Under the pieces are notes generated by a model. It did no database searches and was not told the origin of the DNA. It worked only from the letters and a program-made list of their open reading frames with translations. Position numbers and translations under genes: made by a program. From an uncultured Oscillospiraceae bacterium (GTDB taxonomy: Bacteria > Bacillota > Clostridia > Oscillospirales > Oscillospiraceae): DNA of 64,000 bases. The stretch is from positions 42,350 through 106,349 of the forward strand of contig CALWXL010000002.1 in the NCBI GenBank assembly GCA_944385485.1, given 5' to 3'. Position 1 is the first letter of the stretch, and the number at the start of each line of letters is the position of its first letter. Positions 40,072 to 57,918 of the stretch are shown here, one piece after another.

Positions 40072-42216
40072 TTAGTTTTCCATGTGCCTACCCAAAAAAG
40101 ATGCTGCCATCTGGGCCATTTTTCCTTCCAGCTCCCCCACGGGGACATCTCCCTGCAGCAGCACCACGCTGCCCAGCACGTCCCCATGGCTGACGATGGG
40201 ATGGGCCACCTCCACCAGGTAGCGGCTATCTCCCTCCAGAACCGGGAGTTCTTCTGTCCCCCCAGCCATGCTTTTGCGCTGCTCCATGGCACCCCTCAGC
40301 TGACTGGACACCGTGCGCTCCAGCAGCTCCTTCCGGGGCGCGCCTCCCACCGCGATGCAGCAGTCCCGATCGGTCACCACCACCGGAACGCTGAGGGTCC
40401 GGTACATGGTCTCGCACAGATTTCCCGCCAGTTCCGTCATATCCTCCAGCTGGGAGTACTTGCGGAAAATCACGCCCCCTTCCCGATCGGTATAGATCTC
40501 CAGCGGGTCACCGTCACTGATAACATTGGCATGGAACACCTTGTTCAGATGCTTGTTAGACTCCTGAACGATGGTGACCGATGAGATATGCCCCATGCCC
40601 TCATTAAAATTTACGGCGCCCTCCAATGTCCCTGAGCGGAGTATGGCGTCCACATCCGATTGCAGCTGAATCTCAAGGTGGTCCTCGTAGACCTTGATCT
40701 GCCGGATGATCAGCTCCAGGTCGTTGCGATCCAAGGTATCCTTGCTCAGAACGTCGTGAAAGACCTCCATGGCAGTGCGGGCAGCCCGGTTGACCTGGAT
40801 GATGGTGTTGCGCTTATCGGATAGCATTTCAATTTGGTGGCTGATGCCCTCAATTCGCTTTTGCAGGTCCGCCTCCAGCTCGTCGTAGGTCTGCTCCAGC
40901 AGTTCTTCCTGTTCCGGGTGCTTCATCAAGTCCCGGATGCGCTGGCGTTTGGTGACCTTCAGCTCTTCCTGGAGATCCACCAGCACCTCGGCCAGGTGGT
41001 CGGCGCTCTGCTCCGTCTCCGCCACATCCTCCTGCTCCCGGGCCAAGTCCTCATTAAGCCGCTGGAGCATATCCGCTGAATGGTCCATCACCTGCCGGAC
41101 ATAGCTCTTCAGCAACTCGTCCAGCTTGTCCACTCGGATGTGGTGGGAGGTACATCCCGACCGCCCCCGCCGGTGGTAGGTGCCACAGGTGTAGGCGTTT
41201 TTCAAATCCTTCCGGCTCATGGCAAACATGGGGCTGCCGCAGTCTCCGCACACCAGGAACCCGGAGTACACATTGTCGTACTTTTTCACCCCCCGGTAGT
41301 TGGAGGTGGTACGCATTTCCCGCAAGGCTCGTGTGGTGGCGAAGGTGCGGTAGTCGATGATGGCCTGGTGGTGGTTCTCAATGACAATATGCTCGCCCTC
41401 GTCCTGGCGCATCTCCTTGCCGTTGATCTTCTTGCGGGTATACTTCCCCTGGCGCAGAGTGCCGATATAAAAGTCGTTATCCAGAATGCCCTGCACCGTC
41501 ACCAGGGACCAGCTCTGTTTCACTTCCCGGCGGTATTCCTTCCCTGCCGCTTCCTTTCGGGCGCGCTCATCCATACGGGCGGTGGGGATACCCTGGTCGG
41601 TGAGATAGTTGGCGATCTTTTTATACCCCCATCCTTCCTCATTATAGAGGCGGAAGATGGTGCGTACCACGTCCGCCTGGGTAGGGACAATCTCGAACTC
41701 CTGGCGGTCGTTGACAATGTACCCGTAGGGGGCGGCACAGATCCATTTGCCGTCTGCCTGCCGACGCTTGATGACGTTCTTCACCTTTTTGCTGGTGTCG
41801 GTGACGGGCATTTCGTTGATGAGAAATTGGAACTGGATTTTCAGCCAGTCATCGTCGTTGGGAAAGTCGATGCCATCCCCGATGGAGATGATTCGTGCCC
41901 CAGCATCCCGCAAGTCCTCCAGCTCCACCAGTCCCCGGCTGTTGCGGCGGGAGAAACGGGAGAAGTCCTTGACCACCAGGATGTCGTATTTGCGGCTCAC
42001 CAGTCCCTTGCGCATGGCCTGGTAGCCCTCCCGCTGCTCGAAGGTGTAGCCGGAGCGATCCCGGTCCTCGTAGAAGGTGAGGGTGCTGCCCGGAAATTTC
42101 TGCTTTACAAAGTCCTGGATGATGGCCTTCTGGTTTTCGATGGACACGTTGTCCCGGTCCAGCTCCTCATCCACCGAGATGCGGCAATAGCCGGCGATGT
42201 CATAGGTTTCGATCAC
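40072..42216 (-). CDS. large serine recombinase fused in frame to the SpoVT C-terminal GAF region
   Basis: 714 residues. Residues 1-150 are a resolvase-type catalytic domain (Ser14 in YCRISVD, VKDFSRFSRR); 165-300 a Recombinase domain (PYGYIVNDRQEFEIVPTQAD); then a zinc ribbon (CGDCGSPMF, TCGTYHRRGRSGC) and a long coiled coil (about 380-480). From GDP at 569-571 the protein becomes SpoVT (LEIYTDREGGVIFRKYSQLE, VVVTDRDCCIAVGGAPRKEL), ending with its GAF-like domain. The GTG start has GGAGG eight bases upstream. The recombinase should cut and join att sites. It is 18 bp downstream of an ankyrin-like gene and shares its promoter. The fusion arises from insertion into spoVT; the natural recombinase end lies at the far end of the element. 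Confidence 0.93.
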   Translation of the reverse strand: MIETYDIAGYCRISVDEELDRDNVSIENQKAIIQDFVKQKFPGSTLTFYEDRDRSGYTFEQREGYQAMRKGLVSRKYDILVVKDFSRFSRRNSRGLVELEDLRDAGARIISIGDGIDFPNDDDWLKIQFQFLINEMPVTDTSKKVKNVIKRRQADGKWICAAPYGYIVNDRQEFEIVPTQADVVRTIFRLYNEEGWGYKKIANYLTDQGIPTARMDERARKEAAGKEYRREVKQSWSLVTVQGILDNDFYIGTLRQGKYTRKKINGKEMRQDEGEHIVIENHHQAIIDYRTFATTRALREMRTTSNYRGVKKYDNVYSGFLVCGDCGSPMFAMSRKDLKNAYTCGTYHRRGRSGCTSHHIRVDKLDELLKSYVRQVMDHSADMLQRLNEDLAREQEDVAETEQSADHLAEVLVDLQEELKVTKRQRIRDLMKHPEQEELLEQTYDELEADLQKRIEGISHQIEMLSDKRNTIIQVNRAARTAMEVFHDVLSKDTLDRNDLELIIRQIKVYEDHLEIQLQSDVDAILRSGTLEGAVNFNEGMGHISSVTIVQESNKHLNKVFHANVISDGDPLEIYTDREGGVIFRKYSQLEDMTELAGNLCETMYRTLSVPVVVTDRDCCIAVGGAPRKELLERTVSSQLRGAMEQRKSMAGGTEELPVLEGDSRYLVEVAHPIVSHGDVLGSVVLLQGDVPVGELEGKMAQMAASFLGRHMEN
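40504..40526. other. left element junction (att half-site with 9-bp core)
   Basis: The core CGGGTCACC at 40504-40512 is identical to that at 57820-57828. Outside it (40503 downward) is SpoVT coding sequence; inside it the arm CGTCACTGATAACAT (40512-40526) is element DNA. The reverse complement of this arm matches the other element end at 13 of 15 positions. Confidence 0.85.
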
Positions 42217-42234
42217 ACCGCAATCCTCCTTTCG

Positions 42235-42939
42235 TTAGATAAACATGGTCCATACAGTATCTCCTGTTTTTTTATCCCGGATGTGTAATGGGGCATTGCG
42301 CAGACCGTGAGGGAGCCTGTCACAGGTAGATAAGTCAATCTCATAGACAAATCGGTTCCAGTCCCGAAAACTGGACAACCAAGACACATCGTTGCGTTCT
42401 ACCTCCACGCACTTTCTTATGTAGTCGCTGGCCTCCAATATGTGCGGATAAGACGCTACGAGCATCATCATCTTCATAGGATATCTCCATTCCTCCAACC
42501 ACGATTCATCATAGATTTCACACCCGACACATAGTCCCATGTCCAGGAAGATGTGGTTGAATAGAATTTCTGCAGAGACGACATCCAGTCCATGATCCAA
42601 CAGAAGTTTGAGCATCCGTATACCGCCCTCGTTGTTCATATGGGCCATCAACCATACCGGATTCAGATAGTCATCAATCTCCGGTGCTGTATTTGTGGTT
42701 GATACATCCATTCCATAGGCTAAGAACAGGCGCAGCAACTCTTGCCTTTTCTCATTGAGTTCTTCCTCCCATGCCACATCGATGAACATTTCATGCAGCA
42801 CAAAATTGTCATATTCTTTCTCGTCAAAAATACCCAGTGGGTCTGCCCCTTGTTGCAGCAGTACCTCTGCCCGTTCCACATCAGTTTCTTTTACCGCTTC
42901 CAATAGTGCTCGATTCAGTTCCAGCTGCTTGTATTCCAT
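42235..42939 (-). CDS. ankyrin-repeat-like protein, first gene of the recombinase operon
   Basis: A 234-residue protein with degenerate ankyrin-like helical pairs: LLEAVKETDVERAEVLLQQG followed by ADPLG, then LLRLFLAYGMDVST and RMLKLLLDHGLDVVSA. The C-terminal half (after residue 130) has no motif I recognise. Ankyrin repeats bind proteins; the partner could be the recombinase encoded 18 bp downstream, but this is only inferred from position. GGAGG lies five bases before the ATG. The promoter at 42994-43022 serves both genes. Confidence 0.72.
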   Translation of the reverse strand: MEYKQLELNRALLEAVKETDVERAEVLLQQGADPLGIFDEKEYDNFVLHEMFIDVAWEEELNEKRQELLRLFLAYGMDVSTTNTAPEIDDYLNPVWLMAHMNNEGGIRMLKLLLDHGLDVVSAEILFNHIFLDMGLCVGCEIYDESWLEEWRYPMKMMMLVASYPHILEASDYIRKCVEVERNDVSWLSSFRDWNRFVYEIDLSTCDRLPHGLRNAPLHIRDKKTGDTVWTMFI

Positions 42940-42993
42940 GGTATCCTCCTTTCAACAATATAGTTAGCCAAAACTTCTCTTGTTGTAGATAAC

Positions 42994-43022: not shown

Positions 43023-43041
43023 GGGGAAAATAACTGAAGCA

Positions 43042-43073: not shown

Positions 43074-43409
43074 TCACTGAGTCATCACCGGCTCCATTTG
43101 CATTTCCTTTTGTCTCTGCACCTCTTTCTCCGCTGATCGCCGACGGTTGTAGAGCAGGAGATCTCGGGTCTGCTCGTACAGGTTTTCCTCTCCCGACAGG
43201 AACACTGCTACCAGATACTTTTGCGCCTTGTACTGCTGGTAGATGGGTTTCAAGGATTCCCGGAACTCCGGGTCATTCTTTTCCTCTCGGGTCAGCCACA
43301 GCTCTACTACTTTACTTTTTTCACGTACGTTCATTTGCAATGGGCTATCATCTCCTATCCAATATTTTCCTCTATTTGCCTGAAAAATATTCACATGGAT
43401 GGTTCCCAT
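43074..43409 (-). CDS. small basic protein of the mobilization region, unknown function
   Basis: A 111-residue protein, or 86 residues if it starts at the internal ATG 43334 (MNVREKSKVVELWLTREEKN). The later start gives a more natural protein, but GAGG lies ten bases before ATG 43409 and nothing suitable lies before 43334. It is hydrophilic and mostly helical, with a charged tail (RRRSAEKEVQRQKEM). I do not recognise a domain. The first codons overlap the end of the relaxase frame by 19 bases. Its place behind the relaxase suggests an accessory role in mobilization. Confidence 0.65.
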   Translation of the reverse strand: MGTIHVNIFQANRGKYWIGDDSPLQMNVREKSKVVELWLTREEKNDPEFRESLKPIYQQYKAQKYLVAVFLSGEENLYEQTRDLLLYNRRRSAEKEVQRQKEMQMEPVMTQ

Positions 43410-44743
43410 GTGGGTTTATCCTCATGATCATCCGCTTTGTGTCCCAAGGCGATTTTCTTTTCCAGTTGTCTGCGCCGGGTTTTTCGGTCGGTGTGGGAAG
43501 GCGTGTTGGTGGCATCCCTTACGGGAGCAGCAGACTGAGTTTGCTCCAGCCTCCGCCCCAGGCCAACCAGAGCAACAGCAACTCCGCCAGAATCATCAAT
43601 AGTGTAGCCCAGGTCGGCCCATCCAGATGGGGCAGGTGTGGTCTGGGCAGGCGAATGGAGGGCAGAGAAAAACGCCGCTCTTTCTTTTTCCCAGCCTGTT
43701 GCAGCATCCTCTGTATTTGGGCCACATCCCCCGTCAGTGCCTCCATCTTCTCCTGGATGAGGTGCCATCCTCTCCGGCTGGAAATCTCCTTCAGAAGGGC
43801 TGTGTGAGCCGCTGTGCACCGCTCCAGGTCTTCCAGCACATTCCTCTGTTCTGTCTCCAGTCGATACAGGGCGCTGAGGATGTTCAGCAATTCCTCCCAC
43901 TCCTCCTGCGTCGGATGGGGCAGTTCTTTCGAGGGCGGTGGGGCATTGCGTTGTTTCAATTCCTCCAGCGACAAGCGCTGCTCGGATTGCGAATTCATGT
44001 TCCATAACCTCCTTGGTATACTTTTCTTCGTGGAGCCGGTCATCCCGGCACTTCAAACCCTGGGGAGTGGTGTAGGTAATGCTCTTCCGGCCATCCGTCC
44101 AACGCACCTGGTAGCCTTCGCTTTTCATCAGGGAGATGAACTCTTCCCGACTGGCAGCATACCGCATACATTGATCAATGGTGTTCACAAGGCGGAACTT
44201 CCAACTTTCCCCCTTTGCCGCCGAATGATATTCCCGGCTGCTCATGCCCTTGCTCTTGGACTTCTGCTGTTTGGGCAACACAGAAAGACCATGTTCCTCA
44301 CAGAGTGCATCGGACAATGTACGAAGACGTTTCAATGTGTTGGGCCCTTGGCGAAGCATCTTCCCCGACTGGTAACACACCGCATTGACGATAAAATGGG
44401 AATGGATGTGCTGGGCATCGGTGTGGGTAGCAATGAGTACCTCGCTGTCCGGCCAAGCCTGCCGAGCAAAATCCTGGGCCAACTGGTGCGCCTCTTTCCC
44501 AGTAACCGATTCCTGGGGATGGAAGGACTGGACGTAGTGGTAGAACCAGACTGGGCTATCCTTGTGGTGCATATGCCGGGTAGCTATGAATTCCTGCACC
44601 GCCAGTTGGGGCGTACAGTTTTGACCACTGACCAACCAGCCGTCCTCCTCTCTGGTTTTCTGCGCCTGAGACACATATCCCGCCACGCCATGCAGCGCCC
44701 CAGCGGACTGCTTTTGATACTTGATAAATGTGACCGTGGCCAT
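43391..44743 (-). CDS. MobP-type relaxase (nickase)
   Basis: A 450-residue reading frame. The first 250 residues are a relaxase: an N-terminal strand with catalytic Tyr candidates (FIKYQKQ, GYVSQ), HHKDSPVWFYHYVQSF and the metal-binding three-His motif HTDAQHIHSHFIVNAV. It should nick oriT and lead the strand to a conjugation pore. ATG 44743 has GGAG eight bases upstream and overlaps the mobC stop (TGATG). After about residue 250 the sequence becomes Gly/Pro/Ser-rich and loses protein-like character. This region is also read in another frame by the 43519-43998 gene, so the long tail may be an accident of a lost stop. Confidence 0.85.
   Translation of the reverse strand: MATVTFIKYQKQSAGALHGVAGYVSQAQKTREEDGWLVSGQNCTPQLAVQEFIATRHMHHKDSPVWFYHYVQSFHPQESVTGKEAHQLAQDFARQAWPDSEVLIATHTDAQHIHSHFIVNAVCYQSGKMLRQGPNTLKRLRTLSDALCEEHGLSVLPKQQKSKSKGMSSREYHSAAKGESWKFRLVNTIDQCMRYAASREEFISLMKSEGYQVRWTDGRKSITYTTPQGLKCRDDRLHEEKYTKEVMEHEFAIRAALVAGGIETTQCPTALERTAPSDAGGVGGIAEHPQRPVSTGDRTEECAGRPGAVHSGSHSPSEGDFQPERMAPHPGEDGGTDGGCGPNTEDAATGWEKERAAFFSALHSPAQTTPAPSGWADLGYTIDDSGGVAVALVGLGRRLEQTQSAAPVRDATNTPSHTDRKTRRRQLEKKIALGHKADDHEDKPTWEPSM
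43519..43998 (-). CDS. coiled-coil membrane protein nested inside the relaxase gene
   Basis: A 159-residue protein in a different frame from the relaxase and wholly inside its 3' half. It has its own strong ribosome site (AAGGAGG, nine bases before ATG 43998). Residues 10-110 look like a coiled coil (EEWEELLNILSALYRLETEQ, HLIQEKMEALTGDVAQIQRM), then a basic stretch (KKKERRF) and a C-terminal membrane helix (ATLLMILAELLLLWLAW). Its amino-acid make-up is far more natural than the overlapping relaxase tail, so I treat it as a genuine gene. The function is unknown; membrane-anchored mobilization accessory proteins of this shape exist. Confidence 0.72.
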   Translation of the reverse strand: MNSQSEQRLSLEELKQRNAPPPSKELPHPTQEEWEELLNILSALYRLETEQRNVLEDLERCTAAHTALLKEISSRRGWHLIQEKMEALTGDVAQIQRMLQQAGKKKERRFSLPSIRLPRPHLPHLDGPTWATLLMILAELLLLWLAWGGGWSKLSLLLP

Positions 44744-45060
44744 CAGCGCTTCTCCTGTCCCGACAGCTCTTGCAGCTTCCAGTAGATTTGGCTGAGGGCC
44801 TCCCATGTGTCCACCAGATGTACTTCTTTGATGCGCCCCATGTTGGCCAGCACGGCCAGCTGGTTGATGCTGCGGCCAATGCCTTTGAGTTCATGGGTGA
44901 TCTCTTTCAGCCCATCCACAACCACAACCTTGTGTCGCAGGACAGCCCCACGCACATAGGCCCCCACAGGCATTTGAGCCAACTCCGCCTTTGCTGCAAT
45001 GCTGTCGTACTGTTCCTGTGTTAGTCTCAGGGTGATCCGTCGTTCTTTTTTCTCTCTCAT
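44743..45060 (-). CDS. mobC: MobC-like mobilization protein
   Basis: A 105-residue protein with an N-terminal ribbon-helix-helix-like start (MREKKERRITLRLTQEQYDS) and a MobC motif near the end of its helical domain (LKGIGRSINQLAVLANMG). MobC proteins help the relaxase open oriT. GGAGG precedes the ATG, and the stop overlaps the relaxase start by one base. It directly follows the RepA-like gene (TGAATG). Confidence 0.85.
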   Translation of the reverse strand: MREKKERRITLRLTQEQYDSIAAKAELAQMPVGAYVRGAVLRHKVVVVDGLKEITHELKGIGRSINQLAVLANMGRIKEVHLVDTWEALSQIYWKLQELSGQEKR

Positions 45061-46368
45061 TCAAACCTCCAGTTCTAAAGTGGGTCCGGGCTTCTGCCCG
45101 GAATGCGCCGGTTTTCCGGCGCTGCCAAGTCCGACAAAGTCGGACGAAGGCTCTGCTTGCCCTCTCGTCGGAAGCGACTGCGCATCCATCGCTTCCGACA
45201 GAGGTCGAAAGCTCCCTCGCTCCGTGCTTCCTCCTCTCCCCAGCAAAACCGCTGCGCTGGGTTTTGCCGGGGACCCCATTTTGCGGTCTGATTCCCCGTC
45301 TCCGGCCCCCGTCTCACCATTGTTAGCTGGCAGCGTAGCGGCGGCAGGGTCGATAGGGTCGATGTCCGGGACACCCTCTGCATCGGCACTTTCGGCACGG
45401 TGCAGCTCCACAATCCGTTTCCCGTTGCTGCGGCGAACCACCGCCGTAATTCCCCTTTCCCTTAGAGCGTCAAGGCTTTGCAGGGTCATCCGGGACACCT
45501 TTTTCGGTGTGATCCCTGCTGCCCCCTCAGGGTCAATCTGTTTGGAAAGCTCCGTGGGAGTGCCGATAAATGTTTTCTGTCTCCCCATCAGTTCAGAGAG
45601 AAGACACACGATCCGTCCCTCTCCCAGTGAGAGCTGTTCCCGGCTGTCCGAAACCAGTTCCCACACGTTTTCTCCATTCCGTTGCAGCTCAAGTTCCCGG
45701 TATTCAATGTCTCGCCCGATGCAGGTGAGCTTTGCTCTGGCAGTGCCCCGCCGCTCCTCCACCAGCGTGAAGCTGGAGTCCACGGCTCCGCTGATGGCTG
45801 TGGTGCCAGAGATTCGGCAGAACACATCCGCCGCCTTTTCTTTGCGCAGATGGTGAATCAGCAGAATGGCAATGCCGTGCCGATCTGCCATTCGTTTCAA
45901 TACCGACAGGTCCCGGTAGTCGTTGGCGTAGGTGGCATCGTGGACTGGGCGAATCATTTGCAAGGTGTCCACAATCACCAGCACCGTGTCGGGATACTGA
46001 GCCAAGAAGTGTTCCACTTGCTCCTCCAGCCCCTGCCCGATGGGGGCACAGTCCGTACAGAAGTGGACACTGTCTGGTGCGTCCTCGGTGATCTCAAAGA
46101 GACGATTCTGGATGCGGAGGACCGAGTCTTCCAGGCAGAGATACAGGGTCGTCCCCTGCCGCACAGGCATTCCCCAGATGGATTCTCCTTTGGCCACCGT
46201 CACCGCAAGCCACAGGGCCAACCAGGACTTGCCCACTTTAGGAGAGCCTGCCAGGATATGCAGCCCTTGGGACAGCAGCGTGTCCACCACAAAGTTGGGC
46301 GGACGCAGCGGCTGGCTCATCAGTGCAGCTCCGTCCACAGTGCGAAGTTTTGGGATTGGTTCATTCAT
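45061..46368 (-). CDS. RepA/RecA-fold ATPase (helicase-loader or replicative type)
   Basis: A 435-residue protein. The N-terminal 250 residues are a RecA-like hexameric ATPase of the plasmid RepA/DnaB-C type: Walker A AGSPKVGKSWLAL, LYLCLEDSVLRIQNRL, Walker B VLVIVDTLQMI and ILLIHHLRKEKAADVF. A winged-helix-like part follows (MTLQSLDALRERGITAVVRR). The last 70 residues are encoded by a cluster of palindromes (45085-45267) and look like translated repeat rather than a domain. GGAGG lies eight bases before ATG 46368. It may allow the excised circle to replicate. Confidence 0.82.
   Translation of the reverse strand: MNEPIPKLRTVDGAALMSQPLRPPNFVVDTLLSQGLHILAGSPKVGKSWLALWLAVTVAKGESIWGMPVRQGTTLYLCLEDSVLRIQNRLFEITEDAPDSVHFCTDCAPIGQGLEEQVEHFLAQYPDTVLVIVDTLQMIRPVHDATYANDYRDLSVLKRMADRHGIAILLIHHLRKEKAADVFCRISGTTAISGAVDSSFTLVEERRGTARAKLTCIGRDIEYRELELQRNGENVWELVSDSREQLSLGEGRIVCLLSELMGRQKTFIGTPTELSKQIDPEGAAGITPKKVSRMTLQSLDALRERGITAVVRRSNGKRIVELHRAESADAEGVPDIDPIDPAAATLPANNGETGAGDGESDRKMGSPAKPSAAVLLGRGGSTERGSFRPLSEAMDAQSLPTRGQAEPSSDFVGLGSAGKPAHSGQKPGPTLELEV
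45085..45281. repeat. cluster of five palindromes translated as the RepA tail
   Basis: Perfect inverted repeats: TCCGGGC/GCCCGGA (45085-45102), GCGCCGG/CCGGCGC (45105-45122), GTCCGAC/GTCGGAC (45129-45145), GTCGGAAGCGA/TCGCTTCCGAC (45167-45199) and GCAAAACC/GGTTTTGC (45243-45267), then GGGGACCCCATTT. The same GGGGACCCCATTT and a GTTTTGC/GCAAAAC hairpin occur in the cluster at 5463-5675, so both may belong to one repeat family. Confidence 0.7.
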
Positions 46369-46521
46369 AATCAACACCTCCGAATATAAAATAAGCGCCC
46401 ACTTGACGTGAGCGCTTTGAGGAAAGGGATTGTCCTTTCACTTGATTATTCTGGTTGTTTTGATAAAATGAGAGTATCGCAAGACACCACAAAAAAGGAT
46501 ATAGGACAGTGGGGTGAGACT
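46369..46521. promoter_or_regulatory. divergent control region of the element, with promoter and inverted repeat
   Basis: A plus-strand promoter is TTGATT (46442-46447), 16-base spacer, TAAAAT (46464-46469). An imperfect 21-bp inverted repeat sits at 46395-46415 (GCGCCCAC...GTGAGCGC) and a second AAAGG...CCTTT pair at about 46423-46438. These could be operator sites controlling both directions; an oriT could also lie here. The open frame from 46408 to 46521 covers the promoter and is not taken as coding. Confidence 0.5.
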
Positions 46522-47646
46522 ATGCCAATGGGAATCCAGCAGACCAACAATCTCTTACACCTGACCCTGGATATCTGGCAGGATCAAGTCTTTTTCAACG
46601 AGATCGCTTATCCAGCCGGACACTTTGCCGCCGACCTGTTAAACGTCAGCCCAGAGATGTTGCAGGAATTACTCACTCTGGGCGGCACCATCAGCCACCA
46701 GGTGGAAGCGCTGGCCTTTGCGGAGCCTTCTCGGTTTGTCCATCTGTTGCAGGAAACTCGTCCCACCCTGGAACCACTCCTGGACATCCTGTGGCGTTGT
46801 CCACCCTACTGCTTCCTGGACAAGGCGCAGGAGCTTCATGCCGTGGACGTGTTGTTTTCTCCAGCTTCTCACAACGATTTGCTGCACCCGGCCTCCCCCG
46901 TCCGAAAATTCTTCTTCCGCTACCTCACTGCCGCATTCAGCATCCCCCTGGGCATCTACCACTTTTCTGTGGCAGCTCTATACTTCGAGGTTGAGTATTT
47001 GCGCAGGCTCAAGAAACGCAACGAGACCTTCTTTGCCACCGCTGCCCACGACTGTTTCAACAGTGAGGACTTCTGGGCCACGATGCAAAAGCTCTCCTAT
47101 GCAGAGATTGAGCCCTTCACCATCTCCCCTACTATATCCTCCACTTATACCTTTGCCCGCAATCCCAAACACGAAACAGACATGGTGTTTGTCCAGCGGA
47201 TAGAATTCCCTACCCTCATTCACTTTTACATCTTCGATCTGTTGAACGGGTTACACCACGGCCATGCCCCCAGCCAGTGCCAGAACTGTGGGCATTATTT
47301 TCTCACCACCAACGCCCATGTTCCCAAGTACTGCGACGGCATGGCTCCCCAGGACAGTCGCATGACCTGCAGACAGTACGGAGCTATGATGCACCAGAAG
47401 GAGCAAAACAAACACCATCCCATCTACAGTCTGTTCAGCACCCGCACCGGTACCATCCGGAAGCATCACCAGCGTGGCAAAATTTCGGACGAGTTGCGGC
47501 AGGAGACACTCCATTTGGCGGCAGTCTATCGGGACAAGGCCCTCATGGACAACGACTACGCCGCCCACGGGTATGCACAAGACATGGAGCTAGAGGCACT
47601 CTATGCCCAGGCCCAACGCCGTTTGGAACGAGGAAAACAGCCATGA
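46522..47646 (+). CDS. element-encoded protein with C-terminal zinc-finger-like region, unknown function
   Basis: A 374-residue protein I cannot name with confidence; it resembles uncharacterised proteins of Firmicutes integrative elements. The N-terminal 260 residues are alpha/beta without a known motif. Near residue 255 there is CQNCGHYFLTTN, followed by KYCDG and MTCRQYG, a Cys4-type zinc-binding pattern. The tail is helical and charged. ATG 46522 (MPMGIQQTN) follows GGGGTGAG. Earlier in-frame ATGs lie within the promoter. Its stop overlaps the next start (ATGA), so it is co-translated with the sigma-like gene. Confidence 0.7.
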   Translation: MPMGIQQTNNLLHLTLDIWQDQVFFNEIAYPAGHFAADLLNVSPEMLQELLTLGGTISHQVEALAFAEPSRFVHLLQETRPTLEPLLDILWRCPPYCFLDKAQELHAVDVLFSPASHNDLLHPASPVRKFFFRYLTAAFSIPLGIYHFSVAALYFEVEYLRRLKKRNETFFATAAHDCFNSEDFWATMQKLSYAEIEPFTISPTISSTYTFARNPKHETDMVFVQRIEFPTLIHFYIFDLLNGLHHGHAPSQCQNCGHYFLTTNAHVPKYCDGMAPQDSRMTCRQYGAMMHQKEQNKHHPIYSLFSTRTGTIRKHHQRGKISDELRQETLHLAAVYRDKALMDNDYAAHGYAQDMELEALYAQAQRRLERGKQP

Positions 47647-49983: not shown

Positions 49984-52900
49984 TTATCGCCATACCCGCT
50001 TGCGCAGAGTCACCACGCCGCGCAGGGCTCCCATGGCCACAACCAGAACCACCACATAAGCCATCATCTGATTGGTGTCGCCGGTCTGGGGATTCTTGTC
50101 CCCATCGGGCTTAGCAGTGGTGTCTGTGGTGTTGCCGGTATTGTTTCCGGAATCATCGGTGCTCTGACCAGGCTTGTTGACATCGTCGTCCGGCTGGGTG
50201 GTGGTACCGTCACCGGGCTTGGTGGTGTCATCCTCTTCGGGCTGCTGATCATCCACCAGCTCCACCTCGGAGCGATCCCGGATGCGCAGGCAGGCCCCGT
50301 CGGGGTCATAGTACACCACACCCACAGCGGAGATGTCGGCCCCCACCTTCACAAAGGTTTCCAGGGGGGTACTGCCGTCTTGGGAGTAGCCAATGTAGTT
50401 GTTGAACAGCAGGCGGAACTGATGGGTACCATCAGTGAGTATCACCTCACTGACCTGCTCGCTGACCAGCTCCACCGAGGTCACAGTGCCGCTGACCTTG
50501 GCCAGCCAGCCGCCATAGCTGTCGTAGTCATTGGCCTGCTCCAGGGTCAGTTCTTTCGGCTCCACAGGCTGGATGGTGCTGTCCACCAACTCGATGTCAA
50601 TGACTCGTAGCTCCACATCGCCCTGGTACTGATCCCAGCTGCCGGTGACCCGGACAGTCTGGCCCACCAGGAAGGTGCCGTCGGCACTGGAGACAGGATA
50701 GAGGTCAATTCCTCCGGTTTCGTCCTGGATGTAGATGGTGTCAAAGAAGGCGTTGGGTTCCACATTGCCAGCGGTAACCACACCCTCCACGGTAAAGATG
50801 TCACCCACCTCACCCTGACGGGCCTCGGCAATGGTGCTGATCTCCCGCTCCTCCAGAATGGAGGAGACGATGTTCTGGACAATGACCTTGTTGGCATAGC
50901 TGGCATCGCCGTAGTCCACGCTGGAGCTGTCGGAGATTTCAAAGTTGGACAGGAACACTGTACCGGCCACATACACCCGGCCCAGGCCCACGGCCTCAGT
51001 GGCCAGAGTGACCACATCTCCCTTTTGCACGACAGCGGTGCTGGCATCGTAAGAGCCGCTGGTGGTGCTGCCCTTTTCCTTGCCGCTGTCCCACTGGCCT
51101 TCACTGCCCTCGGGGCGGACGTTGGAGTTGATGGAATAGCAATTGGAAGAACCCATCACCAGAGCCTGACCATTTTCGCCCAGATCCACAGAACAGCCGG
51201 AGTAGGCGCTGTACACCTGGCCCTCCTGCAGCCCAGCAAAGAGCTGAGGAAAATCCCGTGTGTTAAATTTATCCATATACACGCGGTAGGTCTGGGTGGC
51301 GCCTCCGTTGTAATTGGTGTCGTCGTCCAGCACCTCGTCGTCATTGAGGCGCAGAGTAGATCCCATGGCCTCCAAAATGGGGTTGACCTGCTCGGTGGAA
51401 CAGAAGGGAGCGCCGCTGAAGCTATCCTGATAGTCCGCCAAGCCGCAGAGAATGACGGTACCGCCATTCTTGGCATAGTCCGCCACCAGCTGGATGTATT
51501 CCTCCGAGAAGTTGGTCTCCTCTGTGGGTGTCACGCCATTTTGCTCTTTCTTCAGGGGGGCAGATACCACCAACAGAGAGACATTCTCCAAGTCCTCCGC
51601 GGTGATAGTCTCCCCGGGCTGTTTGATGGTCACCTGGGCGTTCATCTCGGCGGCCAGGGCGGTGAAGTTCCCCATGTTCCCGGAATAGTAGCCGGTGACA
51701 TAGTCGTTGTAGTGGGTGCCGTCCACCAGGATACGGGTGACCAGAGAGGGATCGGTGACGTTAAGTTGGAGCACCCCGGTAAAGGTGTACTCGGTTCCGC
51801 CGATGGTGGAGACCAGGGACACATCCACAGTGGTCTTACCTGCCATGTCAAAGGTGCAGGGGAAAGAAATCTGTGCCGTAGTTCCAGAGGTCAACACGCC
51901 ATTGCTTCCGATTTCCTGGACGTTCACGGTGTGAATCACCTCACCGTCCACGGAATAGGTCATGGACTGGACGGTCATATCGCTGCCGGCGTTGTTGTAG
52001 ATCTCGCTGGAGAGGTTGACCGCCTCGCCACGCACCACCAACTCCTGATCGCACACTGTGCTGGAGATACCGGCATTGACCCCCTCACCAGTCCACACGG
52101 GAGCGGTAACGGCGATGTTCTGGTCGGCCTGGGTGATGCGTAGATAGTAGTAGGAGTAGTCGTTGCTGTCAAAGGTAAAGGTCACGGTGCCGTTGCAGCC
52201 GGACAGGGTCTTGCTGGCTGCAACCAGACCACCGTTGACGATTACCTCCACCTTGGCATCGCCGGAGTCGGTGGGGTCGCTGATCTGGGCCTGTATAGTG
52301 ACCCCCTGCTCCTGCTTGGGCAGGATGGAGCCCATAGCGTTGCCGTTGAGAGAATACAGGATGGACAGATCGTTGTCCTCGGTGGCGTACACCCGGTAGT
52401 TGGCAATGGCATCGTAAATGCCCTGCTCAGTCAAGTCAGAGGCCAGCACCACACTGCGGGCGGTGTTGGAGTCGCCCCAGTTACCCTTGTGGTTGTCCTG
52501 GTTGTTTGTGGGGGCCACATGCCACCCCTTGTCCAAAGCACGGGTGTAGTACTCATAGCTGGGGAAGTAGCCGCTGGAGCCAATGGCTCCTTCGCCGTTG
52601 CCCACCTCAATGAGGGTGATGCGCTGATCCAGTGCGGCGGAGTAGAACGCAAAGTCCTGGAAATCACCAAAGGTGGTGCCGGGATGGTTGAACTGGGACA
52701 GAGAGGAACTGACCTGCACCAGCATATTATAGTAGTTCTGATAGCCTTCGGTGCTGCCGGACTTATTGCCGAACTCGCTGTTGCTACGGCTTTCAAAACC
52801 TGGGGTGTTGAAGGTGTTGATGTGACCGAACCCATCCGACCAAGTCATCTCAAAGCCATAGAGACCCACAAAGTTCTCAGTGGTGGCATTGGCAGCTGCC

Positions 52901-55200
52901 TCGTGGCCCTGGGCCCACTCGCTGCTGATGGTGGTGCAGTCATTTTCCAGGCCCACCCCGTCGGCACTCTCATTGTCGAAGGAGTTGGAGTGGTCAGTGA
53001 CCGCCAGGAAGTCCAGATTGTCCACCTGAGAGGCATGGTCAAAGGCCTCCTCCACGCTGCCCGCACCGTCGGAGATGTTGGTATGGGAGTGAAGCTGTCC
53101 AAAGTAGAGGTTGTAGTCATTCAGAGACACAGGAGCCTGATAAGTAAACTCCGCCACCGGGCTGATCTGAGCCTGGGTGCCAGCCTCTTCATCGGCGGGC
53201 AGATAGGCGATGGCCTTGAGGGTCAGAGGCTGATCCACAGTGGGCACCGCCACATCCTCCCCCACCTTGAGAGCCTTGGTGTAGGCTTCGCTGTTGGTGG
53301 TGGGCTGGGAGCCGTCGGTGGTGTAGTAGATGGTGGCACCCTCCACGCTCATCAGTTCAATGGTAGCACCCTCGGTCAGAGAGGCTCCGCTGGCCGGGGT
53401 AGCCCGCACCTCCAGCTGGGTGGGTTCCGGCTCAGGTTCGGGCACACCCTCCACCACCTGGAAGACCACACCGGTTTTGTCGTTTTTGCTGGTGGTCCAA
53501 TCGTCATACTTGTCATCCCAAAGCAGGTAGTTGCCCCGACCCTGGTTTTTCACATAGTATACTCCTGTGGTATCACTGGCTTCCAGCGTCCAGGTCTCGT
53601 TCTCCCCTGCACCGGGATACACGCTGGAATAGCTTCCCGCCATGCTCAGAGTCTTACCCCCATTGGTGAAGGTAAAGCCGGTTTCAGCATCTCCCCCCAC
53701 CGTCCACACCTCGGTGGCCTCATAGCCGGTGAGGGTTCCCTCTTCCAGCTTCACCGTCACACCCACTGGGTAGTAGGTGCTCTTCACGTTGGCGGACAGG
53801 GCCAGCATGGTATCCGGCGCGTAGATCACCACCTGGTCACCAGCGGAAATGGGAGTCTCTCCCTCCTGCCCGCCATCAGGCACCAGAGGCTCGTCGTTCA
53901 CATCAAAGCTGCCACTGCGGAAAAACTGAAACGTATAAATTTCAGGCTTACTGGTGTTCATGCCATAGCAGGTAAAGTAGCCACCATAGTATTCCAGATA
54001 CTGAGGCTTTCCGTAGGCTACGGCATTGGCTCCCTTGATATAGAATCCACCCCCTGCCTCTTCCAGATCAAACTGCGTATACTCTCCCAGCTCCTCCACC
54101 AGTCGGACGTTGGTACCGTCCAGATAGAGGAAGCCCTTGTCACTTTTGAGAACATAGTGGCCGTCCTGCTCATAGACCTTGAACTGGGCCGCACCCTCGG
54201 GAAGGGTCAGGGTATCATCGCTGACTTGGGCATCCACAGCCACCAGCTCGTCCTTGGTGCTGCCGGAACTACTGGTGTAGGTATAGCCCTGGCTGCTCAT
54301 GACTTTGTTGGCTTCAGGATAGTAGATGGTCACCACGTCGCCCTCTGCGATTGTCTCCACCCGCTGGGCAGTGGCCGGCGCCTGAATGGTGTAGCGGATG
54401 GTCTGGATGGCGCTCTGGGTGCCATCCAGCACGGCCACCGCCTTTAAGGTCACCTGAGCCCCTGCCTCACCGGTGATCACCGGCTTAGTCTCGTCGGTAT
54501 AAAGGGTGCTGATGTCGCTGGGGTTACTGCCGTCGGTGGTGTAGTAGATGGCAGCTTCTTGGGTGGCGCAGGTCAGAGTGATGGCGGTGCCGGAGGCCAC
54601 CTCTCCGCCCTGGGGCTGTGCCTGGGGTGCGGCCACTGTAATCCCTGTGTCTCCGCTGTCCACCTGGAACACCAGCAGATCAAACACATAGCCGCTGGAA
54701 TTGGTGGTGGAGTATGCACCAAAACGTGCCCCGGAGGTTTGCCATGCAATGGCCCGGGTGCTGCTTCCAGAGGCCACAAAACGGAAGGTGCCGTCCCCGT
54801 TATCGGTCACATTCCAGGTGTAGGCTTCCTGAGGCTTGGTAAAGTTGGTACCTGAGCTGCCATAGCCCAGATAGTTGGTGCCATTGGACAGACTGATTCC
54901 GGTTCCCGAAGCCGCTGCCGTCCACACCGGCACGTCGGTGCCGCTGAGGTTGGTCCCGTTCACCGTCACAGGTACCCCGTCAATTTTGCTGCCAATGGTG
55001 GTGTCCAGAGCTTGGGCGCCACGGTCGGTGTTGGCCACCAGCACGAAGCTGCCGCCTGCCTGGAGTTGTGCCGCCGATGTGACCTGGGTGTAGGTGTTCT
55101 CCTGGGCATAGGTCATGACAGGAAGCATGCCCAAGCACAGAACCAGTACCATCAGCAGAGCCAACCCACGCTTGCTCCAGCTTTTGAATCTGTGATACAT
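49984..55200 (-). CDS. giant sortase-anchored surface protein with PHP phosphoesterase domain (CehA/McbA type)
   Basis: A 1738-residue secreted protein. A signal peptide (LALLMVLVLCLGMLPVMTYA) is followed by repeated beta-rich modules, including two chitobiase-type units (IYYTTDGSNPS and IYYTTDGSQPT). The PHP domain begins near residue 700 with FGQLHSHTNISDG, then AVTDHSNSF, NHPGTTFGDF and NNQDNHKGNWG, so the metal ligands look complete. Ig-like modules and an OB-fold-like domain (TIYIQDETGGIDLYPV) follow, then an Asp/Thr-rich spacer and a sortase signal NPQTGD, membrane helix and KRVWR tail. It probably cleaves phosphoesters at the cell surface. ATG 55200 has AAAGGA ten bases upstream. Confidence 0.85.
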   Translation of the reverse strand: MYHRFKSWSKRGLALLMVLVLCLGMLPVMTYAQENTYTQVTSAAQLQAGGSFVLVANTDRGAQALDTTIGSKIDGVPVTVNGTNLSGTDVPVWTAAASGTGISLSNGTNYLGYGSSGTNFTKPQEAYTWNVTDNGDGTFRFVASGSSTRAIAWQTSGARFGAYSTTNSSGYVFDLLVFQVDSGDTGITVAAPQAQPQGGEVASGTAITLTCATQEAAIYYTTDGSNPSDISTLYTDETKPVITGEAGAQVTLKAVAVLDGTQSAIQTIRYTIQAPATAQRVETIAEGDVVTIYYPEANKVMSSQGYTYTSSSGSTKDELVAVDAQVSDDTLTLPEGAAQFKVYEQDGHYVLKSDKGFLYLDGTNVRLVEELGEYTQFDLEEAGGGFYIKGANAVAYGKPQYLEYYGGYFTCYGMNTSKPEIYTFQFFRSGSFDVNDEPLVPDGGQEGETPISAGDQVVIYAPDTMLALSANVKSTYYPVGVTVKLEEGTLTGYEATEVWTVGGDAETGFTFTNGGKTLSMAGSYSSVYPGAGENETWTLEASDTTGVYYVKNQGRGNYLLWDDKYDDWTTSKNDKTGVVFQVVEGVPEPEPEPTQLEVRATPASGASLTEGATIELMSVEGATIYYTTDGSQPTTNSEAYTKALKVGEDVAVPTVDQPLTLKAIAYLPADEEAGTQAQISPVAEFTYQAPVSLNDYNLYFGQLHSHTNISDGAGSVEEAFDHASQVDNLDFLAVTDHSNSFDNESADGVGLENDCTTISSEWAQGHEAAANATTENFVGLYGFEMTWSDGFGHINTFNTPGFESRSNSEFGNKSGSTEGYQNYYNMLVQVSSSLSQFNHPGTTFGDFQDFAFYSAALDQRITLIEVGNGEGAIGSSGYFPSYEYYTRALDKGWHVAPTNNQDNHKGNWGDSNTARSVVLASDLTEQGIYDAIANYRVYATEDNDLSILYSLNGNAMGSILPKQEQGVTIQAQISDPTDSGDAKVEVIVNGGLVAASKTLSGCNGTVTFTFDSNDYSYYYLRITQADQNIAVTAPVWTGEGVNAGISSTVCDQELVVRGEAVNLSSEIYNNAGSDMTVQSMTYSVDGEVIHTVNVQEIGSNGVLTSGTTAQISFPCTFDMAGKTTVDVSLVSTIGGTEYTFTGVLQLNVTDPSLVTRILVDGTHYNDYVTGYYSGNMGNFTALAAEMNAQVTIKQPGETITAEDLENVSLLVVSAPLKKEQNGVTPTEETNFSEEYIQLVADYAKNGGTVILCGLADYQDSFSGAPFCSTEQVNPILEAMGSTLRLNDDEVLDDDTNYNGGATQTYRVYMDKFNTRDFPQLFAGLQEGQVYSAYSGCSVDLGENGQALVMGSSNCYSINSNVRPEGSEGQWDSGKEKGSTTSGSYDASTAVVQKGDVVTLATEAVGLGRVYVAGTVFLSNFEISDSSSVDYGDASYANKVIVQNIVSSILEEREISTIAEARQGEVGDIFTVEGVVTAGNVEPNAFFDTIYIQDETGGIDLYPVSSADGTFLVGQTVRVTGSWDQYQGDVELRVIDIELVDSTIQPVEPKELTLEQANDYDSYGGWLAKVSGTVTSVELVSEQVSEVILTDGTHQFRLLFNNYIGYSQDGSTPLETFVKVGADISAVGVVYYDPDGACLRIRDRSEVELVDDQQPEEDDTTKPGDGTTTQPDDDVNKPGQSTDDSGNNTGNTTDTTAKPDGDKNPQTGDTNQMMAYVVVLVVAMGALRGVVTLRKRVWR

Positions 55201-55229
55201 AAGTATCCGTTCCTTTCTCTCAAATGGTT

Positions 55230-56450
55230 TCATCTATCAAGAACTCTGGAGGGGCGAGACATCAGATAGGCACTGATGCCTGCCACCAGAGGAACTGTCA
55301 ACAGGATACCCAGGGAGCCTGCCACACTCTGCAACACCTCAATACAGAGAAAATCCGTGTTCACCAGCTGGAGAAACGGGATGTCATAGACCTGGATGAG
55401 CAATAACATGTTGAAGGAGGAGCCAGCAAAGGCCAAAATCAGGGTGTTTGCCATGGTTCCCATGGCATCTCGTCCAATATTCATTCCGGAACGGAAAAGT
55501 GCATGAGCCGAAAGGGTGGGGTTTTGCTCCCTCAGCTCCCACACCGACGAGGCAATGGACATAGCCACATCCATCACAGCCCCCAGAGCCGCCACCAGCA
55601 CTCCGCATACCAGCAGCCCCTGGATGGTCAGTCCATACTCGCTGCCGTAGAGCATCAAGTTCTCGGCCTCAGTCATGTTAAACCCATTCAGCGGCGTGAT
55701 CATCCCCGCCACCCAAGCAAACAACCCCGCCACAGACACCCCGCACACACAGCCCAGACTGGCACACAGGCATTTCCGGGTCAGCCCATCCAACAACACC
55801 AGAGAGGCCACTGCAGTCACCGCCACGATGCCAATGGTGAGAGGTATGGCGGGTAGACCACGAACGAGACCGGGCAAAAGCAAACACCACAGACACAGCA
55901 GGGTAAATACCAGCCCCAGCAAGGCTCTCAGGCCCTTTTTGCCCCCCAGAAACACCAATACGGCGCAGAAAATCAACAGTGCGCCCCCCATCACAAAGCC
56001 TCGGTCATAGTTGAACATGGTGGCATAGTAGGAGCCGTCTTCCTGGGTGATGAGACGTACAATAACCCGATCCCCCTCCTGCACATCCACGTTGAACAGT
56101 GCACTGAGGTAGTTGGTCAATGGCAGCACTTCCCCCTTATGGCTCCCCGAGAGCAGCTGAATCTCCAGCTCCTGGGTACCCACACGGCGACCCTCACCCT
56201 GCTTCCAGTCGGGGGCAGCATCGTCCTCCAGCACCGCCGTCACCTTGGCCGGTACAAACACCAGCTGGCTGGACGCTGTGGGCTGGCCGCTCACCGGGCG
56301 GTTGAGCCACACCCCCGCTGCCACCAGCAGCGCCAGCACCATCACCCCTAAAAAAATACGAGGCAGCAGATGAGCCCGATTGTGTGCCTGCTCATCTCTG
56401 CCGCACTGTGGAGTTTCTCTGGCCTGTATGGTCTGTTGTTTCCCTGACAT
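55230..56450 (-). CDS. YibE/F-like membrane protein
   Basis: A 406-residue multi-pass membrane protein. After a first helix (IFLGVMVLALLVAAGVWL) comes an external beta domain (LEIQLLSGSHKGEVLPLTNY, VDVQEGDRVIVRL), then about seven helices with the family marks FLGGKKGLRALLGLVFTLL, YGSEYGLTIQGLLVCGVLV and ALGAVMDVAMSIASSVWEL. YibE/F proteins are unassigned transporters. The gene is 29 bp upstream of the PHP surface protein start, so both should be one operon and may work together at the membrane. Confidence 0.85.
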   Translation of the reverse strand: MSGKQQTIQARETPQCGRDEQAHNRAHLLPRIFLGVMVLALLVAAGVWLNRPVSGQPTASSQLVFVPAKVTAVLEDDAAPDWKQGEGRRVGTQELEIQLLSGSHKGEVLPLTNYLSALFNVDVQEGDRVIVRLITQEDGSYYATMFNYDRGFVMGGALLIFCAVLVFLGGKKGLRALLGLVFTLLCLWCLLLPGLVRGLPAIPLTIGIVAVTAVASLVLLDGLTRKCLCASLGCVCGVSVAGLFAWVAGMITPLNGFNMTEAENLMLYGSEYGLTIQGLLVCGVLVAALGAVMDVAMSIASSVWELREQNPTLSAHALFRSGMNIGRDAMGTMANTLILAFAGSSFNMLLLIQVYDIPFLQLVNTDFLCIEVLQSVAGSLGILLTVPLVAGISAYLMSRPSRVLDR

Positions 56451-56618
56451 ATTGATATATTCTCTCCTTGTTGACGTGTCCCGTCCGAATTCCGTCCATC
56501 AGTATATCATCTGATTTTCCCCACGTTCCACCACGGTTTCAGGTGTTTTCGGTAAAGCAAAGGTAAACACACCATTCTTCTCCCCGAATGCCATACTCCT
56601 GATTTTACACAAAATACA

Positions 56619-56651
56619 AGCAGCCCAGTTGCACAGGCAACCAGGCTGCTC
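56619..56651 (-). terminator. hairpin terminator after the BRO gene
   Basis: AGCAGCC...GTTGC pairs with GCAAC...GGCTGCT; on the minus strand it is followed by TGTATTTTG. It separates the BRO gene from the YibE/F operon. The rest of 56451-56728 shows nothing that I recognise. Confidence 0.7.
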
Positions 56652-56728
56652 CGATGTTCAAAGCGTGAAATATTGTCACAGTTTACTTTCTTTTGGCAGG
56701 GTATCCTTCCTTGTCACCTGCACTATTT

Positions 56729-57604
56729 TTATGTTTTTTCTTCTGTCCATTCTGCCGCATCCTCCACCACACCAGTGATCAAAGCCTGGAGGGTGTGGGC
56801 GTTCTCATGGGTCACTACTGGCCCGCCAGTCTCCTGCTCCAACTCTTTGCGGGCATTTCCGGCAATGCGGCCGCCCCGTTGGGCCACTTTGCGGTTTTCC
56901 TCCAGCCCCTGGGGTTGCTCTGCCCGGGAGATACTGGTGGTGGATGCCTCGGCCAACATATTGAGCACCAGCTCCAAATCACTCATGTTGTCCCGTAAGT
57001 TCTCTTTCTTCAGCCCCTTGAACTGCTTGTACTGTCTCGTAGTCATCCCAGACCAGGCACGGGAAATCTCGTTGGTGAGAATGGCATATTCCCGCCCCTT
57101 TTCCACGCCTCGCTTCTGCCACTCGTCGGTAAGCTCGTTGCGAATGCGGATGGACAACAGGCGCTGATGCACCCATTCCTCTGAGTACCCCTTTTTCAGG
57201 TAAGTCTCCAAAGCCCGGTCAATGGCCTGCTCCGGGTCGATGGTCTCCTCGATACGCTCCCGGCCCACCTGGGCCAGCCACACCTTGAACGGCTCTGCCT
57301 TGGGGGACGGGATGGACTGGATGATGCGCAGGAGCTGCTCGGTGTTGGCCACATCGGTCATTCGTTTTTTTCCGTCCGCTGCGGTCATCTTCAAACCGTG
57401 ACAATTTGTCACGGTTTGATTTCCTTCCTCTTTCAGTCGTTGCTTCAGCTTGCGCCAATAAGCCGTAGGGTCCTTACTGTCTGTGAGCACCCCCACCACG
57501 TCCACCACAGAGAAGTACCACTCCTCCTGCTGGGCATCCCAAGCGGTGCGAATGCGCTGATCCTCAAAAAGTTGGATTTGATCGTTCTGCATCTTCTCGT
57601 CCAT
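56729..57604 (-). CDS. BRO-N / DinD-like protein
   Basis: A 291-residue protein with an N-terminal BRO domain (IRTAWDAQQEEWYFSVVDVVGVLTDS, AYWRKLKQRLKEEG). The middle matches DinD-like damage-inducible proteins (TEQLLRIIQSIPSPKAEPFKVWLAQVGRERIEE, then LTDEWQKRGVEKGREYAILT). Such genes are usual in phages and integrative elements; DinD opposes RecA in E. coli, but the function here is not known. GGAGG lies nine bases before the ATG. It is the element gene nearest the right junction. Confidence 0.85.
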   Translation of the reverse strand: MDEKMQNDQIQLFEDQRIRTAWDAQQEEWYFSVVDVVGVLTDSKDPTAYWRKLKQRLKEEGNQTVTNCHGLKMTAADGKKRMTDVANTEQLLRIIQSIPSPKAEPFKVWLAQVGRERIEETIDPEQAIDRALETYLKKGYSEEWVHQRLLSIRIRNELTDEWQKRGVEKGREYAILTNEISRAWSGMTTRQYKQFKGLKKENLRDNMSDLELVLNMLAEASTTSISRAEQPQGLEENRKVAQRGGRIAGNARKELEQETGGPVVTHENAHTLQALITGVVEDAAEWTEEKT

Positions 57605-57732
57605 GCGTATGTACCTCCACGGTTGTGTTTTTCATTTTATCATAACGTCTGTGGCAAATCCAGGGTGTTTCCCTGGTATATATACCCTCTAGACCCCCTC
57701 CCGGATTCCCACGGTAGCGCCCACAGGTTTCG

Positions 57733-57918
57733 TCATAATGTACCATCGATGCCGGTCCGTTTTGCCAGATCCAGCATTCCGAAGCAGAACATTTCCCACC
57801 GTGTCCATGTTGTCTGTGACGGGTCACCCTCCCGAATACGCATGGTTCTCCGGATTTCCTTTGGTATGACTACACGACCTAAGTCGTCAATTCTTCGCAC
57901 AATGCCGGTTGCTTTCAT
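57733..57918 (-). pseudogene. spoVT: SpoVT N-terminal part (codons 1-33) fused to element sequence
   Basis: ATG 57918 (GGAG eight bases upstream) starts MKATGIVRRIDDLGRVVIPK and runs to REGDP, the AbrB-type DNA-binding half of SpoVT. At residue 34 the frame enters the element and adds 28 foreign residues (SQTTWTRWEMFCFGM...) before TGA. The missing remainder is at 40503-40072. As it stands the product lacks the last strands of the AbrB fold and the whole GAF domain, so it should be inactive. If the element excises, the gene becomes a normal 176-codon spoVT. In Bacillus SpoVT tunes sigma-G genes in the forespore. Confidence 0.92.
57807..57828. other. right element junction (att half-site with 9-bp core)
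   Basis: The element arm ATGTTGTCTGTGACG (57807-57821) leads into core CGGGTCACC (57820-57828), then spoVT codons. Joined to the left arm it would make a 36-bp near-palindrome with central GA/TC dinucleotide, the usual shape of a large serine recombinase attP. Confidence 0.85.

Follow-up and report, generated by a model that had tools for sequence, protein, structure and literature searches.

We have analysed a stretch of 64,000 nucleotides (the window) from an uncultured Oscillospiraceae bacterium (genome G000, assembly GCA_944385485.1; contig C2, CALWXL010000002.1, positions 42350-106349), whose genome assembly amounts to 1.77 Mb in 119 contigs and is 86% complete. A mobilizable element of 17,316 bp interrupts the sporulation gene spoVT in this window at codon 33, between two identical 9-bp cores, and the gene is split at the same codon in many related genomes. 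The observations described below are best accounted for, in our view, by a model in which a small element-encoded factor times excision of the element to the forespore and spoVT is rebuilt before sigma-G acts; we assign this model a probability of roughly 0.64.

Interruption of spoVT in the window

Both halves of spoVT are on the minus strand. The 5' half (57820..57918) comprises codons 1-33 (MKATG...REGDP) and matches positions 1-33 of TIGR02851 with an expect value (E) of 4.8e-17, and the 3' half (40072..40503) comprises codons 34-176 with the stop codon and matches SpoVT_C (PF15714, E 3.8e-33). One copy of the core, GGTGACCCG, closes codons 1-33 at the junction of the N-half with the element (attR, 57820..57828, minus strand), and the other, also GGTGACCCG, precedes codon 34 at the junction of the element with the C-half (attL, 40504..40512, minus strand). 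With this core-to-core distance of 17,316 bp, the element can be placed at 40513-57828 or, equivalently, at 40504-57819. An earlier inspection of these letters (the sequence-only reading) had proposed a 17.3-kb element between identical 9-bp cores in spoVT, and exact restoration of the gene upon excision. Both proposals agree with our results, since the frame computed across the core gave 176 uninterrupted codons and a stop for the joined halves. The span given in that reading, however, began at 40072, which is the end of spoVT on the minus strand and not an end of the element. The locus thus has the trait of a sporulation intervening element, namely a sporulation gene split at a short direct repeat, with the frame regained on joining.

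The sequence-only reading had also raised the question of a second, intact spoVT. None was found when the window genome (86% complete, in 119 contigs) was searched with TIGR02851, which returned the 2 spoVT halves and one further match, to an N-terminal-only paralogue of AbrB type. The paralogue is located at window positions 29620-29769 and matches SpoVT residues 1-51; most genus genomes have a comparable match. The 2 spoVT halves and their adjoining sequences align with the intact spoVT loci of 3 related genomes (G003, G016 and G019). A natural pair of empty and filled sites is provided by G010, which has an intact spoVT, and G011, in which the gene is split: the 2 are 93-96% identical on both flanks, and their alignments overlap by 11 bp at the core with about 21.9 kb in between. 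Because the same codon has been hit recurrently and a natural empty site exists, the sequence comparisons exclude chance placement of the element.

Fusion of the recombinase to SpoVT and exchange of tails

In line with the sequence-only reading, which named serine recombinases for the known elements, a serine recombinase gene is located next to one element end, and its identity was borne out by its domains. Its open frame of 714 amino acids (aa; 40072..42216, minus strand) contains Resolvase, Recombinase and Zn_ribbon_recom domains and, a point absent from the sequence-only reading, crosses the core without a stop and continues in frame through the SpoVT C-half. At the opposite junction, the SpoVT N-half is followed in frame by an element-borne tail of approximately 27 residues, SQTTWTRWEMFCFGMLDLAKRTGIDGTL and a stop (57733..57819, minus strand). 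A similar peptide was observed in 43 of 45 distinct tails, the exceptions being those of 2 genomes with unfused recombinases (G183 and G189), and the ratio of non-synonymous to synonymous substitution rates (dN/dS) of the tail was about 0.34 over 204 pairs. In a circular form of the element, this tail would be the native C-terminus of the recombinase. As judged from the 2 junctions, integration swaps C-termini, in frame, between the recombinase and SpoVT. The recombinase gene would then be built to remain complete in both states, with the SpoVT tail when integrated and with its own tail in the circle, and such completeness would fit a need for re-integration.

The putative attP sequence is a dyad, matching at 18 of 25 positions and centred in the core, versus only 8 of 25 for attB at the same place; together with the 3 domains, this dyad identifies the enzyme as a large serine recombinase. 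The last base of the core is often unlike between the 2 halves of a split gene (for example in G009), and the exchange therefore lies within GGYGACC. The C-half junction of G032, which reads ADP, narrows the exchange region further.

Recurrence and movement of the element

We searched samples of 42 genomes from the genus, 300 from the family and 394 from the order, and named genomes in which 379 relatives of the recombinase were found, the best 80 being kept as loci. Uninterrupted spoVT genes and the same insertion, for which the sequence-only reading had suggested a search of related genomes, were both found: spoVT is full-length in 22 of the 42 genus genomes and is split at the same codon in 16, with a C-half in a long frame in 13 and an N-half ending at the same GDP codon in 14. 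One genome, G034 (7% contamination), has an intact copy in addition to the split one, and the state of the gene is unclear in 5 (G007, G008, G024, G026 and G031). The N-half of G007 (L042, L043) is changed to REVDPSQ, and 23.6 kb further on the contig ends within the start of a second N-half. The recombinase is present in 13 of the 42 genomes and is fused to the SpoVT C-half in all 13; among the 22 genomes with intact spoVT it occurs only in G034.

In the family sample, 45 of the 300 genomes carry the recombinase at E 1e-120 or better, and in 40 of the 45 it forms a single frame of 716-818 aa with the SpoVT C-half. The 5 non-fused carriers are a fragment (G055), a case at another site (G070), an inverted junction (G254) and the unfused recombinases of G183 (L236, L239) and G189 (L248), which have 47-48% identity and occupy the same spoVT codon. 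In G254 (L235, L237) the spoVT N-half meets the recombinase end head-on, an arrangement suggestive of an inversion of the element or of the presence of 2 elements. Fusions account for 77 of the 80 kept loci from the named genomes (74 closed, including L190 with its diverged junction, and 3 truncated at a contig end); of the other 3, L194 terminates short of the core, and the ends of L143 and L197 lie at other sequences. A closed fusion is also found in isolates, among them Pseudoflavonifractor sp. An85, P. capillosus An386a, Butyricicoccus pullicaecorum DSM 23266, Agathobaculum butyriciproducens DSM 100391 and Flintibacter muris DSM 110149. Element length, in 10 closed cases, ranges from about 12.2 to 40.1 kb.

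The recombinases of L143 and L197 (= L281, G070) end at non-spoVT sequence, in one case beside a lepA-like sequence (by eye); these are probably secondary sites. A human-gut contig filed as phage (MT836658.1, L131) encodes at 441-2588 a fused recombinase and SpoVT C-half with 52.6% identity, near genes resembling recN and argR (by eye), so that the arrangement may extend to hosts outside the family.

Between G000 and G005, element identity is 95.8% over 15 kb, as against 74% for the C-halves of their hosts. These identities show recent transfer of elements between species, and they are evidence of horizontal transfer as such, rather than of its route, for an integrative mobilizable element. 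Vertical inheritance as a general rule was rejected for the clade of the window, in which synonymous divergence (dS) is 0.20-0.39 for the recombinase and 0.72-1.65 for the host. In 11 of 26 family pairs, recombinase dS was at least 0.8 of C-half dS, as joint inheritance would give, and for those pairs vertical inheritance is plausible.

Expression signals and selection on split spoVT genes

According to work on Clostridioides difficile (PMC3789822), SpoVT acts in the forespore, and a spoVT mutant yields phase-dark spores, none of which is heat-resistant. The spoVT gene of the window is preceded by an exact match to a sigma-G-type promoter, GCATA-N17-CATAATA (57981..58009, minus strand). With one mismatch allowed, such a promoter was present in 77 of 105 distinct stretches, whether the gene was split or intact, and in 2% of shuffles.

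The median dN/dS of C-halves in the genus was 0.11 among split genes (37 pairs) and 0.22 among intact genes (103 pairs), values that we read only as "no weaker" for the split genes because the pairs are not independent and the 2 groups differ in make-up. Purifying selection on split C-halves, by this measure, is strong and no weaker than on intact ones. In the 11 family pairs with dS values resembling joint inheritance, C-half dN/dS was 0.01-0.43, and at most 0.20 in 8; if the elements were inherited with their hosts, spoVT was constrained while split. The family search also yielded 15 N-halves from the genus, 14 of which specify one and the same 33-residue peptide through 13 different DNA sequences, with 1097 synonymous codon differences in 91 pairs.

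Other sporulation genes have mostly been retained. The sigG gene is full-length in 37 of the 42 genus genomes and split in 2, and the 3 genomes in which none was detected, G026, G028 and G039, are 69-76% complete; no sigG match in the genus reaches the family cut-off. The spoIVA gene was found in 41 of the 42. Among the 16 genomes with split spoVT, 14 have a full-length sigG and 15 have spoIVA.

A small gene with a forespore-type promoter

The element also has a small gene on the minus strand (43074..43334, the listed open reading frame (ORF) extending to 43409), which encodes an 86-aa protein (MNVREKSK...) and is a candidate for a recombination directionality factor. A homologous gene lies no more than 1.5 kb upstream of the recombinase gene in 73 of 85 loci, not all of them distinct elements, or in 54 of 64 cases when counted by distinct recombinases, and it also adjoins the unfused recombinase of G189. 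The protein was found in 32 of the 394 genomes of the order sample. It has no significant relative in Pfam, NCBIfam, PHROGs or PDB; at E 0.01 it was absent from PLSDB and, except for one fragment of the same element family, from a phage collection. Its structure was predicted with a pLDDT of 88.6 and a pTM of 0.50.

Upstream of the small gene is a forespore-type promoter, GAATA-N18-GAAAATA (43363..43392, minus strand), which matches exactly the motif GHATA-N16-18-GAAAMTA. Scored on 53 non-redundant upstream regions, this motif was exact in 36 and present within one mismatch in 43, the corresponding frequencies in dinucleotide shuffles of these regions being 0.000 and 0.023. Before other ORFs of the same loci it was exact in 2 of 358 cases and within one mismatch in 5 of 358. 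In several members of the genus this motif, as GCATA-N17-GAAAATA, also precedes the host gene gpr (exact in 6 of 29 gpr upstream regions and within one mismatch in 12 of 29), and C. difficile gpr is named as a member of the sigma-F regulon (PMC3789822). The upstream regions of spoIIR differ from the small-gene motif, with GTATA-N15-GTCCATACTG. Sigma-E and sigma-K motifs before spoVT and the small gene were at or below shuffle level. From its linkage and its promoter, we infer that the small protein is the directionality factor.

Two other arrangements for timing were considered and rejected. A sporulation promoter directly before the recombinase gene is one; sigma-F, E, G and K motifs were near shuffle level there, and the small-gene motif was found in 0 of 69 upstream regions. 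The other is a directionality gene located immediately within the N-half junction and transcribed from the spoVT promoter; the cargo there is not conserved, being Bro-N-like (by eye) in G000, G005, G251 and G235 only.

Evidence bearing on excision

Contig ends near the junction gave some indication that joined and split forms coexist. Of 28 plus-strand C-half rows, 7 had a contig start within 200 bp of the junction on the element side and one at 200-2000 bp; on the host side, a contig start within 200 bp was seen in 0 of 19 minus-strand C-half rows. One of the 7 starts, that of G290, is a joined gene broken there, and the contigs of joined spoVT in G308 and G290 break 12 and about 18 bp, respectively, behind the core. 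Contig breaks at the core are what a mixture of joined and split DNA, within or between strains, would give. A search for an extrachromosomal circle in PLSDB, phage records and IMG/VR returned only distant recombinases, or contigs that were integrated or ended near the core.

Excision itself we infer, and we consider its developmental timing likely because a recombinase-linked small gene has a forespore-type promoter and the split copies are under purifying selection. The small protein would be made early in the forespore, by sigma-F and before sigma-G, and would convert the recombinase to excision, so that spoVT would be rebuilt in time for its transcription by sigma-G. Since the forespore is the germ line, the circle would have to be kept, and would be re-integrated after germination. 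A wider proposition is more tentative, and we hold it at somewhat below even odds: that widespread mobilizable elements of gut Oscillospirales make sporulation depend on their own germ-line (forespore) excision, that the circle re-integrates, that the recombinase spans the attachment site and is complete in both states, and that the exchange of tails may set the direction of recombination.

Several observations weigh against forespore-timed excision. A strict attP pattern had 0 matches in IMG/VR, and no recombinase match in the 300 family and 42 genus genomes continues into the native tail. A small gene was not found within 1.5 kb of 10 of the 64 distinct recombinases, the best PDB match to the predicted structure of the small protein has E 0.25, and the protein is a candidate for the directionality role by its linkage and promoter. 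The small-gene motif had been refined on the very loci on which it was scored, following a scan of 5 motif types; at 19 loci of other families, some misplaced by contig ends, it was exact in 1 and within one mismatch in 4, versus 2.4% of shuffles. The fifteenth genus N-half, that of G007, has a changed core codon, and the zero non-synonymous differences among the other N-halves arise by construction, one exact protein having been selected. The fusion protein could account for part of the selection on C-halves, and many insertions may be young, given that the elements move often.

Some of these points would equally be expected of an ordinary integrative mobilizable element for which spoVT is merely the attB site, with excision rare and unregulated, carriers that sporulate poorly, and insertions lost by selection or chance excision. 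The clear movement between species, the very conserved target, the failure to find an excised junction in IMG/VR or in the family and genus genomes, and the altered N-half core of G007 all agree with such an element. Yet prevalence in the genus is high (16 of 42), most of these genomes retain sigG and spoIVA, split C-halves are selected no less strongly than intact ones, and the linked small gene has a forespore-type promoter; we consider this explanation unlikely, though it deserves to be kept in mind.

Developmental excision could instead be limited to the mother cell, as with skin and SP-beta, leaving the element in the spore chromosome. The published intervening elements, as described in PMC4191935, PMC10747680 and PMC5595907, are active in the mother cell or inserted in mother-cell or sigma-K genes; but SpoVT works in the forespore (PMC3789822), and both spoVT and the small gene have forespore-type promoters rather than sigma-E or sigma-K motifs, which makes mother-cell excision quite improbable. 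Slightly less probable still is that spoVT need not be rejoined at all and that its function is supplied by the recombinase-SpoVT fusion or by the N-half with its tail. As this would predict, 40 of 45 family carriers have an open fusion, and the C-half is conserved; against it, a more distant recombinase that occupies this site in G189 is unfused, and the cut lies within the AbrB-type DNA-binding fold, the halves of which it separates. Finally, the window genome is a 119-contig assembly, and the sequence-only reading had allowed for an assembly error at either junction. The same junction, however, is present in 13 C-halves and 14 N-halves of the genus, in isolates, and in the single-contig genomes G118 and G168, both of which have a split spoVT; this recurrence refutes an assembly artefact, and an artefact or population mixture can for practical purposes be set aside.

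Comparison with known intervening elements

The sequence-only reading suggested that spoVT undergoes the same kind of rearrangement as the genes interrupted by skin and similar elements. Developmental timing is indeed likely, but the cited cases are mother-cell events, whereas spoVT is a forespore gene whose rearrangement would be heritable. Skin, in sigK of C. difficile and Bacillus subtilis, likewise is a serine recombinase element that splits a sporulation regulator, and in C. difficile a mother-cell-specific directionality factor times its excision (PMC5025042). It differs in being prophage-like and in occupying a mother-cell gene in a terminal cell, while the spoVT element is mobilizable, occupies a forespore gene and exchanges tails in frame with its target. 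The sigma-G-type promoter of spoVT and the forespore role of SpoVT (PMC3789822) set it apart from the mother-cell targets of skin-like elements. SP-beta in spsM offers a parallel for timing, in that a recombinase expressed during growth (SprA) is combined with a factor that has its own sporulation promoter (SprB; PMC4191935), but SP-beta is an active phage and, as described there, is excised only in the mother-cell genome. The gin element in gerE of Bacillus cereus is, like the spoVT element, not a prophage; it has a 9-nt core and its gene is rebuilt in sporulation, but it lies in a mother-cell gene, and the portions of PMC5595907 available to us mention no fusion to the target. Sporulation genes also harbour the intervening elements yin (yabG of Clostridium botulinum), vfbin (spoVFB) and vrin (spoVR), which are prophage-like and whose target genes are described as regulated by sigma-K or expressed in the mother cell. 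Integrative and mobilizable elements with a serine recombinase share with the spoVT element a relaxase, a mobilization protein, the recombinase and variable cargo; unlike ordinary ones, the spoVT element has a forespore-type promoter on a gene linked to the recombinase, and its near-constant site here is a sporulation gene. In our searches of open-access literature we found no description of spoVT as the target of an intervening element, in line with the sequence-only reading, which knew of none.

The known sporulation excisions, as far as the cited accounts describe them, occur in the mother cell; this cell dies, and the element itself is preserved in the spore. Insertion into a forespore gene departs from this rule, since every spore would start life with the element excised. 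If the model is true, a reversible and heritable DNA rearrangement takes place in the germ line of common gut bacteria, and spore transmission is tied to a mobile element. It would also explain the broken-looking spoVT of many gut genomes, for which predictions of sporulation from gene content could be wrong. Cultured carriers exist.

Other genes of the element and a split sigG

The mobilizable nature of the element, asserted by the sequence-only reading, is supported by a relaxase gene of the MobA/VirD2-like type (43391..44806, minus strand; PF03432, E 3.2e-34) and a NikA/MobC mobilization protein gene (44743..45060, minus strand; PF21983, E 1.4e-17, and PF05713, E 5.8e-07). With a relaxase and an integrase on a bounded, site-specifically inserted unit, the element is, by its gene content, integrative and mobilizable, and the attB of its large serine recombinase is a site within spoVT. 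A prophage origin, which is usual for skin-like elements though not for gin, is not indicated: these mobilization genes are present instead, and no phage structural gene was found among the ORFs scanned, a part of all those of the element.

Also on the minus strand are a 234-aa ORF between the small gene and the recombinase gene (42235..42939), for which no family was found; an AAA_25 ATPase (45061..46377; PF13481, E 4.2e-26), presumably RepA-like; a cargo gene for a 1749-aa protein with a CehA/McbA metallohydrolase domain (49984..55233; NF038032, E 4.8e-33), the end of which has weak matches to sortase-anchored proteins; a 406-aa ORF with no NCBIfam family (55230..56450); and a Bro-N protein beside the N-half junction (56729..57604; PF02498, E 9.6e-12). 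The plus strand encodes a DUF6076 protein (46408..47646; PF19553, E 2.4e-62), a sigma-factor-like ORF (47277..48482; phrog_351, E 5.6e-26, over residues 134-377) whose true start is probably further in, a SWIM zinc finger protein (48502..48966; PF04434, E 2e-08) and a Doc-type protein of a toxin-antitoxin pair (49499..49831; TIGR01550, E 1.6e-11).

The 2 genus genomes in which sigG itself is split (G037 and G033) are interrupted at ...YGVPM/IVGEIRR (L062, 4941-6925; L063, 6299-6580; L064, 5730-7717; L065, 884-1168). Serine recombinase frames of 488 and 491 codons stand directly before the sigG C-half, to which they are not fused, and in G037 both sigG and spoVT are split.

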